Source: Halanaerobiales bacterium (GTDB lineage Bacteria; Bacillota; Halanaerobiia; Halanaerobiales; DTU029). Taken from it: a DNA stretch of 64,000 nt. Position 1 is the stretch's first letter; each line of letters opens with the position of its first letter. Under the pieces are notes generated by a model. That model was not told where the DNA came from and ran no database searches. It worked only from the letters and a program-made list of their open reading frames with translations. Shown one piece after another: positions 4,531 through 12,075 of this stretch. The stretch is taken from NCBI GenBank assembly GCA_029981855.1, contig JARRCS010000009.1, positions 1-64,000 on the forward strand, written 5' to 3'. The position numbers were made by a program, and so were the translations under genes.

Positions 4531-4589
4531 ATTCCGGAAATCCAGCTTTAACACCTACATGCCTTGCTACCGAAGAATGCAGGCAAAAT

Positions 4590-4759
4590 AAACAGGCAGG
4601 TCTCCTGACTTATAGATCATCATAAGACCGCTAACCCTTCCCCCAAAGGGTGGGTATATCTGCCTTCCGGCCTTATTCCCTAATCACAGTGGCGGGCCCG
4701 TTCAGGATTTGCACCTGATTCCCTATTCTCCCCCGGTTTTTACCTGGAGGCACCTGTTT
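4590..4759 (-). ncRNA. Cobalamin (AdoCbl) riboswitch
   Basis: The minus strand contains the B12-box core GCCACTG (4687-4693), the upstream motif CAGGTGCAAATCCTG (4703-4717) and a closing P1 helix AAACAGG/CCTGTTT (4753-4759 with 4590-4596). The arrangement matches the Rfam Cobalamin class. A terminator hairpin and then btuF-cobU-cobQ-cbiB follow, so uptake and synthesis genes should be turned off when adenosylcobalamin is plentiful. Confidence 0.92.
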
Positions 4760-4783
4760 ATTCAGCCGTATGCAATTTTTGGA

Positions 4784-4971: not shown

Positions 4972-5916
4972 TTAACTAATGCAGAAAGGGGTTTGTACAA
5001 GGTTCTCCCAGCCGGCCTCTATTTGGGGCTGGAGTGAACTACCAATTTTAGAGAAGATGATAAGCCCCGTCTCCCTGACATCGACATCCTTTCTAAGCTT
5101 TTTCAGTTTAAATCTATCTCCTACAGAATCTACATTCACAACCCCGTCCTCCAGGGGTAGGAAACCCTTAATTCTGTAGGTATTGGGTGCTATCTCCTTT
5201 AAGAAATCAAGCAGTTTCTCCCTTTTAACCGGCTCCTCTACCTTCAGAAAATAGGTCTCCGGTCTACCTGCATCACAGCCGGTTAACGAGTAACCGCTAT
5301 TCACCGGTAAACCATAGTCTTCCTCCAGTATTACCGGATCAATCTCTCCAAAGCTGGTTCTAATTATTCCCGCCTCCGGGTTGATCTCCCTGATCCTTTC
5401 TTCAATCACCTGGAGCTTATTCTCATCCACCAGGTCGGTCTTATTGATTAAAATCAGATTGCTGTAAGCAACCTGTTCCTGTAGAGAGTTTAGGCTCTGA
5501 ACCAGGGTCAGGAAATTGGTGGCATCGACCACACAGAACATCCCCCGGTAAGCAAAGGTATCCCCGGTTAGCTTCTCGATTTGGGTTAGTATCCCTTCAA
5601 TACTGGAGGGCCTTGCCATTCCGGAGCTTTCAACCAGTAAATAATCTAGCGGCAGGTCCTGATAGGCGACTATACTTTTAACAAAGGAGCCAGATAAACA
5701 GCTGCAAAAGATTGAGCCGTTATTAATCGCCGAGATCTTCAGGTCTTTATCTCCATCTATCAGGGCAGCATCGACATTAATCTCTCCGAAATCGTTGACA
5801 ATTACCCCTATCTTCCGGTTCTTTAAACCGGCCAGGAGATTGTTCAGTAAGGTCGTCTTTCCAGCCCCCAGAAAACCGGTGATAAAATGTAATTTAATCG
5901 GTTCTTTTACAGGCAT
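4972..5916 (-). CDS. CobW/G3E-family P-loop GTPase
   Basis: GTPase of the G3E (CobW/HypB/UreG) class, whose members load metals or cofactors onto client proteins. Walker A is GFLGAGKTTLLNNLL (about residues 13-27). There is a Cys pair in FCSCL, where CobW proteins carry a metal-binding CxCC, then the SGMARP motif and the guanine-specificity motif NKTD. The C-terminal CobW_C-like domain is present. It overlaps the upstream UroD-thioredoxin gene by 10 bases, so the two are almost certainly co-translated. I infer it serves that protein (metal or corrinoid loading) rather than cobaltochelatase, for which no genes are nearby. Confidence 0.85.
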   Translation of the reverse strand: MPVKEPIKLHFITGFLGAGKTTLLNNLLAGLKNRKIGVIVNDFGEINVDAALIDGDKDLKISAINNGSIFCSCLSGSFVKSIVAYQDLPLDYLLVESSGMARPSSIEGILTQIEKLTGDTFAYRGMFCVVDATNFLTLVQSLNSLQEQVAYSNLILINKTDLVDENKLQVIEERIREINPEAGIIRTSFGEIDPVILEEDYGLPVNSGYSLTGCDAGRPETYFLKVEEPVKREKLLDFLKEIAPNTYRIKGFLPLEDGVVNVDSVGDRFKLKKLRKDVDVRETGLIIFSKIGSSLQPQIEAGWENLVQTPFCIS

Positions 5917-7262
5917 TTTTTGATCTCCCCCAGCAGTTCCTCCCGGTTAGGCACAATCGAGGAAAACTTCAGTTCACCATTGATATAAATACTGGGCAGA
6001 TGCTTAACCCCCATCTTCCTGACCCGGGCAATATTCTCCCGGTTATTATACTTATATTCCCTGACTTCAATCTTATCACCGAAATACTTCTTTCCCTCCA
6101 GCGCTGCCGCATACATATAGGTACAGGCTGCACAGGTATCTGAATCCAGGGTAAATACCTCCACCAGAGGTTTATCTAGATTCTCATAGTCCGGGATCTC
6201 AACCTCAACATCCAGATCCTCTGCTTCATAGTTTTCTACCATCTGACGGACCTGTTCTGTCTGGTGAACCGCCTGCTCTATCGCAATAACATTTTCTGGT
6301 GGAATATCATAGGGCATATCACAGCCCGGGGAGATAATCAGATTGTTATGACTGACTGAGTCCAGTAATTCAACTACACACTTCATATTATCCTGCTGAG
6401 AACCCAGTAACATGACGGTGGTCAGGGGGATATTTCCCCCGAGGGCAATATTATACCTATCAGTAATCTCCTTGGCCTCTACCATGGAGACGTTCTCATC
6501 GACAGAGATACTGTCAGGTTCTGTCAGACACATCTCTTCGATATTATTGCTGGCATTCCCACAGACAAAGAAGGAAGAAAGAGCGCCCTTACTGCGGATA
6601 AACTCAAACAACTCGCTAAAGGGTTCGTTTAAAAACTCCCTGAAATGAGCCGGTGAGATCTGTGATACCATCGGATCGACAGCAGCTATTACATCCATTC
6701 CTGTATCAATGTAATACCCGGCCATGGTTAAGGCAACCTTATTAGTATACTCCAGAAGTTTTTTAACATAATCCGGGTCAGTAATCATATCCATAAATAG
6801 ATCGGTCCCTCTGAGATGTGAAGCCAGGGTAAAGGGTCCACAGATTAAACCGTAGAGAGCTGTCTTATCTCCTACCGCCTGTTTCATTTTCTCCATGACA
6901 TCCAGTACCAGGGGAATCCTGCCATCCTTTCTGGTAGGAATGGTAGCGGGAACCTCCTTGGTCTCAGCCAGCGGATGGGAAACTACGGTAGGTGGTGTAT
7001 CCTCCGCCCACTTTAATTTACAGCCGAGAACCTCTGCTTCAATCTGCAGATCAAAGATAACCGGCTGCCCGTCGGGATGATAAATCTTATTAACCTCTAT
7101 TAAGGATGTAAATAATTTATTGCCATCCTTTAATACTTCTTCAGCATTATAGCCCTTTAGCTTGCCGGCATGAACCCCGGCGAAGGGAACCCAGGGCACT
7201 GCTTTTACATCTTCATTTTTTAATACCCTGTAAATTAATTCTTTTCCGGTCATAGCTATCAA
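5907..7262 (-). CDS. UroD/MtaA-like methyltransferase fused to a thioredoxin-like domain
   Basis: Residues 1-350 are a uroporphyrinogen-decarboxylase-superfamily barrel of the MtaA/CmuA kind, used in corrinoid methyl transfer. Residues about 370-451 form a thioredoxin-like fold: beta strand EVFTLDSDT, CAAC redox motif, later cis-Pro segment HLPSIYING. In MtaA enzymes zinc is held by His-x-Cys and a distal Cys. Here FFVCGNA has Phe in place of His, while the distal Cys (SPGCDMPYD) is kept. True HemE activity is unlikely given the fusion and context. Substrate unknown. It shares a short operon with the CobW-type GTPase. The nearby cobalamin genes suit a corrinoid-linked role, but no corrinoid-binding protein gene is adjacent. 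Confidence 0.8.
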   Translation of the reverse strand: MIAMTGKELIYRVLKNEDVKAVPWVPFAGVHAGKLKGYNAEEVLKDGNKLFTSLIEVNKIYHPDGQPVIFDLQIEAEVLGCKLKWAEDTPPTVVSHPLAETKEVPATIPTRKDGRIPLVLDVMEKMKQAVGDKTALYGLICGPFTLASHLRGTDLFMDMITDPDYVKKLLEYTNKVALTMAGYYIDTGMDVIAAVDPMVSQISPAHFREFLNEPFSELFEFIRSKGALSSFFVCGNASNNIEEMCLTEPDSISVDENVSMVEAKEITDRYNIALGGNIPLTTVMLLGSQQDNMKCVVELLDSVSHNNLIISPGCDMPYDIPPENVIAIEQAVHQTEQVRQMVENYEAEDLDVEVEIPDYENLDKPLVEVFTLDSDTCAACTYMYAAALEGKKYFGDKIEVREYKYNNRENIARVRKMGVKHLPSIYINGELKFSSIVPNREELLGEIKKCL

Positions 7263-7433
7263 CTCCTTGTAACAATATCATACCTGTTTTATCAAAGATC
7301 CTTTTTTTCTTAATTTTATTTTAACAGGAAGGTAGTTCGGTTTATTGTAAATATTTTTGCTTATTTTGTAATTTTTTTCACAGCTAAAAAGCTATCTCCA
7401 AAATAGTCTTGTAATAAATGTCCTGTCCCGGTA

Positions 7434-7507: not shown

Positions 7508-8278
7508 TTATTCTCTCTTTGTAATTAACCGACCGACCATATTTACCGGCTTACTGATAAACCGGCTTACCTCTTCAATCTTATCAGCAGGAAGGCTGGC
7601 CAGTAAAACCGTTCCCGGTCCAGCTGACTTTTCTGGATCAATCTTTAGTTCAGGATTAAAATCAAGCTTAAACCCGGACATTTTAGCTAGAATACCGGCT
7701 TCATAGGAGATGCCTTTAGAGCCTACCGGTAGTATCTCATGAATAAAATCCAACTGGAGAAGTCCCTGCAGTGTTGATAGATCTGCAATTAGCTCTTCCT
7801 TTGCCAGTACCTCTTCCCCTACCATCGGCAAACCAACTGCCACGACCATGTCCAGGGGAGAAGATCTGGCCAGCCTCAGTCCGGAGGCCTCTACCAGGCC
7901 GATAACGGTAACCCCTATACCGGTCTGAAATGTAGGAATGTTCTCTTCCGTACTCCCGTTAATAACGATATCGGGATCTAAACCTGCCTTATTTACCTCC
8001 GCCCTGATCCCGGTTATAATCTCCTTGCCGGTAGGTTCATACTCAACTGCCAGGGTATTAATGACATTGACAGGCCTGGCCCCGACAGCCATAACCTCCA
8101 TCAGTGCTACCCTGGTAGTAAAACGGCCAACTACCTGACCGGGGACCCGGAGGGAATCTCCTTTCTTCGGGCCGATACCCCCGGCCGAATCACAGGCAAT
8201 TACCAGATAGTTTTCATCACCAAGCCGGATTAGAGAAATATCCCGCAGAGTATCGATCTGTTGGTACAATTCTCTCAT
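7508..8278 (-). CDS. PurM/ThiL/HypE-superfamily (AIR synthase-related) protein; possible alpha-ribazole kinase
   Basis: ATP-dependent enzyme of the PurM superfamily: an N-terminal domain with acidic CDSAGGIG and the segment VVGRFTTRVALMEVMAVGA, then a PurM C-terminal-like domain from about residue 120. It is not purM itself, being too short and far from purine genes. As I recall, the alpha-ribazole kinase CblS, which salvages the lower cobalamin ligand, belongs to this superfamily, and the cobalamin genes next door make that a fair guess. A ThiL-like kinase is the main alternative. I chose the ATG at 8278 (GAGGAAGGTG upstream) over the frame's first start at 8359, which would overlap the MFS gene. 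Confidence 0.6.
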   Translation of the reverse strand: MRELYQQIDTLRDISLIRLGDENYLVIACDSAGGIGPKKGDSLRVPGQVVGRFTTRVALMEVMAVGARPVNVINTLAVEYEPTGKEIITGIRAEVNKAGLDPDIVINGSTEENIPTFQTGIGVTVIGLVEASGLRLARSSPLDMVVAVGLPMVGEEVLAKEELIADLSTLQGLLQLDFIHEILPVGSKGISYEAGILAKMSGFKLDFNPELKIDPEKSAGPGTVLLASLPADKIEEVSRFISKPVNMVGRLITKRE

Positions 8279-8315
8279 CCTACAAACACCTTCCTCAAAC
8301 ATGTAATAATTTGGA

Positions 8316-9548
8316 TCATTTCGATTTCCGTTGTCCGGTTCCTGCCCCCTTTTGCACAAAGTACATAATGATAAAGGGGATGGACCCCAGAATTAATAAA
8401 CCAACCGTTACCATAAAGACATGATAGATGACCATTACCTTTAACAGGGAGTTACCTATTAAGGGACCGATCAATCCCCTGACACCTAACATGGTTAAAT
8501 ATAGACCGCTGTACTGGGAGGACCTCGCGCCGCCCAGTTTCATCATCAGATTGAGCCAGCCCAACTCCAGACTCGATCCGGCTGCCCCGCCCAGAAAGGA
8601 GGCCAGCATCAATAAGTAATAGGGACTTTGAAAGAAGTAGATCAAGGGTGAGCCTAAAAAGATAATTATAGAAATTACTATTGAATGTAACGGCTGAAAA
8701 TGGTCAATAATCCAGCCCCAGAGAGGAACGGTTGTAAACCAACCGGCAATCCAGAAGATAGCAAGCTGGCCGATTTGCAGATTGGTTAAACCAAGTTCAT
8801 TAACCTGAACCAGCGGATAGACTGGGGCCAGAATCAGATTTCCCAGATCAAAGATAAAAAATCCTGTAATAGCCAGTCTTAATAATCTATCTGCCTTTAA
8901 TAATTGAAAGGTATTCCTGAGAGAAAAACGGCTTCTGGGTGGAAGTTTCTCCTGCGGTTCCCTAATTCGGGTAAAAATTAGGGAGGCCAGGATACCGAAT
9001 GAACCGGCAATAATAAAGAGACTGGTAAACCCGTGGGCATCCAGCCAGAGGCCGGCAAGATAGGTTACTACTACCCTGACCATTCCTATAATAAATTGAA
9101 TCCGGCCCATTATCTGCCCTCTAAATTGAAGTGGATAGATCTTCCGGACCAGACTGGTAAAAGCAGGACCTCCAATTGAAGCTAGTAAAAAATGTAGAAT
9201 AACAAAAAGAGCAAAAAACTCTGCCTTACTAACAAAAGCAAGCAATATTACCATCAACCTGGACAAAATTCCACTAATAACGACAAAGGGGAGTTTCTGT
9301 CCCTGATCACTCCTGTGACCCCAGTAAACTGCAAACAACTGGCCCATAAAGGGAGCCGCTGTAATCATGGCCAGTAGGGTGCCCGTCACCCCGAGTCTAA
9401 CTGCAGTTACGGCAAAAAAGGGATAAACAGCCCCGGCAAAGAAGCCGAAACATACTGAAGCTCCCATATCTATCTTCATATTAAACCGGGTATCTTCATC
9501 TAAACGGTAAAAAAAGGGGATAAATCTGTTAACAAGATTGACAGGCAT
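8316..9548 (-). CDS. MFS transporter, 12 membrane segments
   Basis: Major facilitator permease of 410 residues with about 12 hydrophobic segments. The cytoplasmic loop after segment 2 carries the motif-A-like GHRSDQGQKLP. It lies 37 bases upstream of the PurM-like gene and shares its direction, so the two are probably one operon. If that partner is a salvage kinase, this could import its nucleoside or cobamide precursor, but nothing in the sequence fixes the substrate. The long soluble loop typical of drug exporters is absent. Confidence 0.8.
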   Translation of the reverse strand: MPVNLVNRFIPFFYRLDEDTRFNMKIDMGASVCFGFFAGAVYPFFAVTAVRLGVTGTLLAMITAAPFMGQLFAVYWGHRSDQGQKLPFVVISGILSRLMVILLAFVSKAEFFALFVILHFLLASIGGPAFTSLVRKIYPLQFRGQIMGRIQFIIGMVRVVVTYLAGLWLDAHGFTSLFIIAGSFGILASLIFTRIREPQEKLPPRSRFSLRNTFQLLKADRLLRLAITGFFIFDLGNLILAPVYPLVQVNELGLTNLQIGQLAIFWIAGWFTTVPLWGWIIDHFQPLHSIVISIIIFLGSPLIYFFQSPYYLLMLASFLGGAAGSSLELGWLNLMMKLGGARSSQYSGLYLTMLGVRGLIGPLIGNSLLKVMVIYHVFMVTVGLLILGSIPFIIMYFVQKGAGTGQRKSK

Positions 9549-11808: not shown

Positions 11809-11835
11809 AAAAACAAAATATTATTAAATACAAAC

Positions 11836-12075
11836 TATGAAGGAGACAGTAGCTCCCTATGTCTATAATCAGAGAGCAGACTGGTCGGTGAAAAGTCTGC
11901 GGTGCATAGGGCTGTGAATTACACTCTGGAGTTGCAATGTGAAAATATTGCGGCTGTCAACCGTTATCCTGACCAGAAGGCACCTCTTGAGGTGGAAAAA
12001 GCAACACCTCTTTAGGTGTAAAGTAAGGTGGTACCACGGGTCTTCTCGTCCTTATAGACAGAAGACCATTTTTCT
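11836..12075 (+). ncRNA. Tyr T-box leader
   Basis: A classic T-box transcription-antitermination leader. Stem I carries the specifier codon TAC (11920-11922, within GAATTACACT), specifying tyrosine. The T-box sequence AAGGTGGTACCACG lies at about 12025-12038. The terminator stem GGTCTTCT/AGAAGACC (12039-12046 with 12060-12067) is followed by ATTTTT. Uncharged tRNA-Tyr should favour the antiterminator and raise tyrS expression. It leads directly to tyrS. Confidence 0.95.

Follow-up and report, generated by a model that had tools for sequence, protein, structure and literature searches.

The window, a 64,000-nucleotide stretch of DNA from a Halanaerobiales bacterium, encodes a 448-residue protein in which an MtaA-like barrel of the URO-D family is fused to a C-terminal thioredoxin-fold domain and in which the metal site of the barrel is rebuilt. 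On the evidence of its gene neighbourhood, the fusion is part of a corrinoid methyl-transfer module. Our preferred reading, held tentatively and at somewhat less than an even chance, is that the protein is an S-methyl-type corrinoid methyltransferase whose fused dithiol performs disulfide chemistry at the substrate or at the site. The features referred to below are the following.

4972-5916, minus strand: CobW/COG0523-type GTPase with an FCxC motif; the start of its gene and the stop of the fusion gene overlap by 10 bp.
5910-7253, minus strand: fused protein of 448 residues, from an ATG start (the ORF call, 5907-7262, includes the stop codon and a TTG start).
7263-7268, minus strand: ribosome-binding site AAGGAG, read directly in the sequence.
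6252-7253, minus strand: MtaA-like URO-D TIM barrel, residues 1-334, from PF01208 and superposition on 4ay8/4ay7.
6561-6569, minus strand: Phe229-Val-Cys231, in place of the His-x-Cys zinc motif of MtaA, from the alignment of copies.
6528-6530, minus strand: Cys242, invariant in the fused clade and missing from unfused relatives.
6321-6323, minus strand: Cys311 (PGCD), the second conserved metal-site cysteine.
6168-6251, minus strand: linker, residues 335-362, with Pro354 and Tyr356 invariant in a 66-sequence alignment.
5910-6167, minus strand: thioredoxin-fold domain, residues 363-448 (start about 363), with 1nho and 1fo5 as nearest solved relatives.
6123-6134, minus strand: CAAC, Cys374-Cys377, read in the sequence and the alignment.

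The frame 5907-7262 on the minus strand is open throughout. The true start is probably the ATG at 7251-7253, behind the AAGGAG sequence, and residues are numbered from it. In the window protein, URO-D (PF01208) matched residues 3-331 with E about 3.5e-52 and 178 bits, above the gathering cut-off of 23.9. Thioredoxin_3 (PF13192) matched residues 371-441 with E=1.3e-4 and 22.4 bits, slightly below its cut-off of 24.8. Both profiles matched all 66 aligned relatives, with E-values of up to 0.01 for Thioredoxin_3. An AlphaFold2 model built from 66 sequences had a mean pLDDT of 93.7 and a pTM of 0.90. Directly upstream of the fusion gene, at 7508-8359 on the minus strand, lies a gene whose AIR-synthase-like product weakly matches methanogenesis marker 2; further along the window, a T-box leader was found at 11828-12056 on the plus strand.

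The barrel of the model had 4ay8/4ay7 as its closest fold (Z 42.8, rmsd 1.7 over 326 residues, 24% identity in the structural alignment), which bears out the MtaA-like barrel claimed in an earlier note on this DNA. Human UROD scored well below this, at Z 36.6. Through the barrel, the family profile also reached MtaA of Methanosarcina (4ay7) with E=4e-32. The cut-offs of the MtaA/CmuA models of NCBIfam (TIGR01463, NF040654) were not reached (145.7 against 235.4, and for MtaA 131.7 against 400). A role as uroporphyrinogen decarboxylase (hemE) was rejected, the TIGR01464 score of 67.5 lying under the cut-off of 302.95.

Zinc in MtaA-type S-methyltransferases is held by a His-Cys-Cys set (PMC10418091). 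The corresponding His-x-Cys...Cys ligands are not present as such in the fusion: every fused copy covering the site has Phe for the His, and both zinc-site cysteines, Cys231 and Cys311, are retained. Among 84 matches with the C-terminal Cys pair, 82 carry the full set His28, Asp68, Phe229, Cys231, Cys242, Glu253, Cys311 and CxxC; of the two exceptions, one has Gln for His28 and the other lacks its N-terminal half. This invariance is somewhat inflated, since the residue sample consists of the best 80 of at least 519 motif-scan matches. The scan used the patterns FDLQ[IV]EA[EQ] and VDPM[VT]SQI and the best matches were kept, so that residues inside the patterns were partly selected; Phe229, Cys242 and CAAC fall outside both. 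The three fused copies least similar to the window protein (43-48% identity) have the same residues, with CAPC instead of CAAC. None of the unfused URO-D relatives at the same loci combines Phe229 with Cys242, and nearly all of them keep the His. The replacement of His by Phe, together with a new invariant cysteine, shows that the barrel does not hold a normal MtaA site. In the model, Cys242 occupies the end of a predicted helix, perhaps a long way from the metal site, which counts against the preferred reading.

The C-terminal thioredoxin-like domain with CAAC was likewise confirmed. From its C-terminus, the family profile reached the solved methanogen thioredoxins 1nho (E=2.9e-8) and 1fo5. 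The domain has both a CxxC and a cis-Pro in a thioredoxin fold, and Cys374, Cys377 and the cis-proline, Pro420, are invariant in 66/66 relatives. An invariant cis-Pro marks a thioredoxin as redox-competent, and from these residues the fused domain looks redox-competent. The invariant Pro354 and Tyr356 of the linker, taken with the pTM of 0.90, suggest that the two domains are fairly fixed relative to each other in the predicted structure.

Searches of other genomes recovered the fusion repeatedly. In the window's own group it was present in 7 of the 41 genomes, one of them with a copy interrupted by an in-frame stop. Scanning genome_contigs yielded at least 519 confirmed candidate stretches with the fusion, of which the best 80 were read. 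An assembly join or chance is excluded by this recurrence in hundreds of contigs. Hosts belong to the Clostridia, Halanaerobiales, Spirochaetes and Chloroflexi; the best 80 matches include Acetobacterium and Eubacterium species and gut Lachnospiraceae, and Blautia and Eisenbergiella are among the carriers. The sampled fused proteins group together in a barrel-based tree as a single clade with support 0.999, for which one ancient fusion is the simplest reading. The two leaves of this clade that look unfused are the same half of the stop-broken copy, present in two loci. That copy, from genome G002 (L003; G002:C31:9171-10514), is 71% identical to the window protein and has an in-frame TAA in the barrel, reflecting either a broken gene or a sequencing error. 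Both the URO-D fold and the corrinoid module are already known. What the literature searched does not describe is the fusion with its matching change at the metal site; there we found no account of a barrel-thioredoxin fusion, in agreement with the earlier statement that no such system was known.

We then consider the genes around the fusion. A CobW-type GTPase gene lies near it in 71 of 82 loci (72/83 with the window counted) and is directly the next gene in 61. The 10-bp overlap of the window recurs in three relatives, and the CobW partners carry FCxC. A selenocysteine form of the CobW partner was rejected, as the only in-frame stop, in 1 of 73 copies, is near the C-terminus and away from FCxC. 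Of the same 82 loci, 42 have a corrinoid protein gene close to the fusion, 33 a gene for a RACE activase and 28 one for a PocR/AraC regulator. The view that the barrel works with a separate corrinoid protein is thus supported by this neighbour in 42/82 loci and by a corrinoid protein in the window's own genome that is 76% identical to one such neighbour. PocR-type regulators are thought to sense small molecules, and their presence suggests an inducible, catabolic use. Some of these results count against the preferred reading: a MeTr gene adjoins the fusion in only 3 of the 82 loci, and no sulfur genes stand out among its conserved neighbours.

Several other elements were seen at these loci. 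In the window, a cobalamin riboswitch at 4578-4772 on the minus strand precedes the run of BtuF-like, CobU, CobQ and CbiB genes that follows the CobW gene; control of the fusion gene by a B12 riboswitch was rejected here, as the riboswitch is downstream and stands before the btuF-like gene instead. In a Sphaerochaeta genome, a cobalamin riboswitch (L048:9089-9273) precedes the fusion gene by about 0.7-0.9 kb, approximately where the corrinoid protein gene directly upstream of the fusion should begin. Eight loci (for example L021:8669-9388, minus strand) have, beside the fusion, a gene for a protein of 230-240 aa that matches the MetH activation domain over a short stretch, and in 8 loci a radical SAM protein nearest to BioB/PylB models is encoded close to the fusion (L070:2817-3800, L066:12331-13305, L030:12472-13476). 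Two genes before the fusion, a 428-431 aa protein (L097:8035-9321, L047:8020-9315) is possibly another URO-D-like enzyme; on scanning, the L097 protein had no Pfam or NCBIfam match.

The window's own genome contains one PF02607 corrinoid protein, one RACE and one pterin-binding methyltransferase, all on a single contig, C15, which also has MetV-, MetF-, HdrA- and formate-H4folate-ligase-like genes (named by reading the sequences). The pterin-binding protein is a methyl-H4folate:corrinoid methyltransferase by NF005719, and the corrinoid protein gene adjoins it. This corrinoid protein shares 76% identity with its counterpart beside the fusion of a relative, G012, and is the probable cognate partner of the fusion. 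MttB, a CdhC domain of acetyl-CoA synthase and a match to MetE were all not found in the own genome. These findings make it likely that the fusion exchanges methyl groups with methyl-H4folate through the corrinoid protein encoded there. Against the preferred reading, MetH is the only pterin-binding protein of G012. MtsA of Methanosarcina does both half-reactions and is, by analogy, a possible precedent for the other half-reaction in G012. A simple replacement of MetH by the fusion was rejected, since G012 has both. The own genome also encodes a stand-alone 296-aa homocysteine module resembling the start of MetH, while the corrinoid part and the methyl-H4folate part are encoded individually on another contig. 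Read from the genes (L156:6328-7218, L121:8825-10578), this looks like a split methionine synthase sharing that corrinoid protein.

In the mechanism that we propose, the barrel would mediate methyl exchange between a separate B12 protein and a soft, sulfur-type substrate. The substrate would be held at a two-cysteine metal site formed by Cys231, Cys311 and possibly Glu253, the usual His having been lost, and the metal would probably be supplied by the CobW-type GTPase made with the fusion. The fused thioredoxin would provide dithiol-disulfide exchange for the same reaction, either by opening the substrate or product in its disulfide form or by re-reducing the cysteines of the site, with Cys242 as a candidate partner. 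A bolder version, which we regard as rather unlikely, sees in the fusion a corrinoid methyltransferase of a new class, whose thioredoxin acts in each catalytic cycle, for instance by opening a methyl or mixed disulfide at the His-less two-cysteine site. If so, anaerobes would have here a route from methyl-sulfur compounds to methyl-H4folate.

Other roles for the dithiol have to be weighed against this. The earlier note had offered two, keeping the metal site reduced or serving as a protein thiol that accepts methyl groups. The former is possible; the latter has lost ground. Here Cys374 would be a methyl acceptor or donor, a built-in replacement of coenzyme M shuttling methyl groups between the barrel and another partner, which would explain a thiol domain on an MtaA fold and how the His ligand could be lost. 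However, one cysteine suffices for a methyl acceptor, yet Cys374, Cys377 and the cis-Pro are all invariant, and methylation of a cysteine would lead nowhere unless a second partner removed the methyl group. Disulfide chemistry is therefore favoured, and a protein-thiol acceptor such as Cys374 appears quite improbable. Alternatively, the domain may act outside each turnover, as a switch responding to redox or metal status or as a site handing over zinc with the CobW GTPase. The CobW gene directly next in most loci and the FCxC of its products agree with this, and a CxxC is able to bind zinc, whereas the invariant cis-Pro points to a redox-competent thioredoxin. We consider such a role unlikely.

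Two further readings change the substrate. Demethylation of methyl-selenium compounds, as in type 1 mlp gene clusters, would be in line with the selenide activity of an MtaA-like protein of an mlp cluster (PMC10418091) and with reduction of methyl-selenium compounds by thioredoxin systems, as indicated by a title cited in PMC10418091. The mlp proteins keep the His-Cys-Cys set, however, which is absent from the fused family. In addition, selD above cut-off is absent from 5 of 7 relative genomes with the fusion (the own genome included) and present in 25 of 34 without it (Fisher p=0.035, uncorrected for kinship); this distribution argues against a selenium role, and we hold that role to be very improbable. 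Vicinal thiols bind methylated metals and metalloids, and the fused dithiol might hold such a compound (methyl-arsenic, methyl-mercury) for demethylation by Co(I). The Cys-Cys-Asp of the barrel (PGCD) would fit this idea, but the conserved neighbours included no recognisable arsenic or mercury genes, which leaves it highly improbable.

Which methyl compounds are open to anaerobes, in sediments as in the gut, depends on their corrinoid methyltransferases. A class as widespread as this one, with its added redox domain and its rebuilt metal site, would bring a further substrate class or a further mechanism, and the linked corrinoid protein allows direct tests of the fusion.

Compared with known systems, the fusion resembles MtaA of Methanosarcina (PDB 4ay7/4ay8) in the fold of the whole barrel, the two zinc-site cysteines, the separate corrinoid protein and a CobW-type gene nearby, found for MtaA in methanogens. 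It differs from MtaA by only 24% identity, the change of the zinc His to Phe, the extra Cys242 and the fused thioredoxin. Like Mlp1-3 of type 1 mlp clusters (Kountz and Balskus 2023, PMC10418091), it is an MtaA-like barrel in non-methanogens with, in many loci, a corrinoid protein and RACE nearby. By their published description, in contrast, the Mlps have a His-Cys-Cys site (several Mlp1 excepted) and occur several per cluster; a thioredoxin domain is not mentioned in PMC10418091, and their selenium link is not seen for the fusion. CmuA/MecE (NCBIfam mtaA_cmuA, whose cut-off the fusion does not reach) and CdmB also use a URO-D superfamily barrel that feeds a corrinoid protein; in the available portions of PMC9768040 and PMC13222342, no thioredoxin fusion is described for them and no zinc was seen in CdmB. 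The small MJ0307/MTH-type thioredoxins (1fo5, 1nho) share the fold, CxxC and cis-Pro of the C-terminal domain; those are free-standing, whereas here the domain is fused and carries CAAC. Finally, COG0523 subfamily 13 sits beside Zn-dependent mtaA (Haas 2009, PMC2770081), and by gene context the window shows the same coupling of a CobW-type GTPase to a corrinoid methyltransferase gene.
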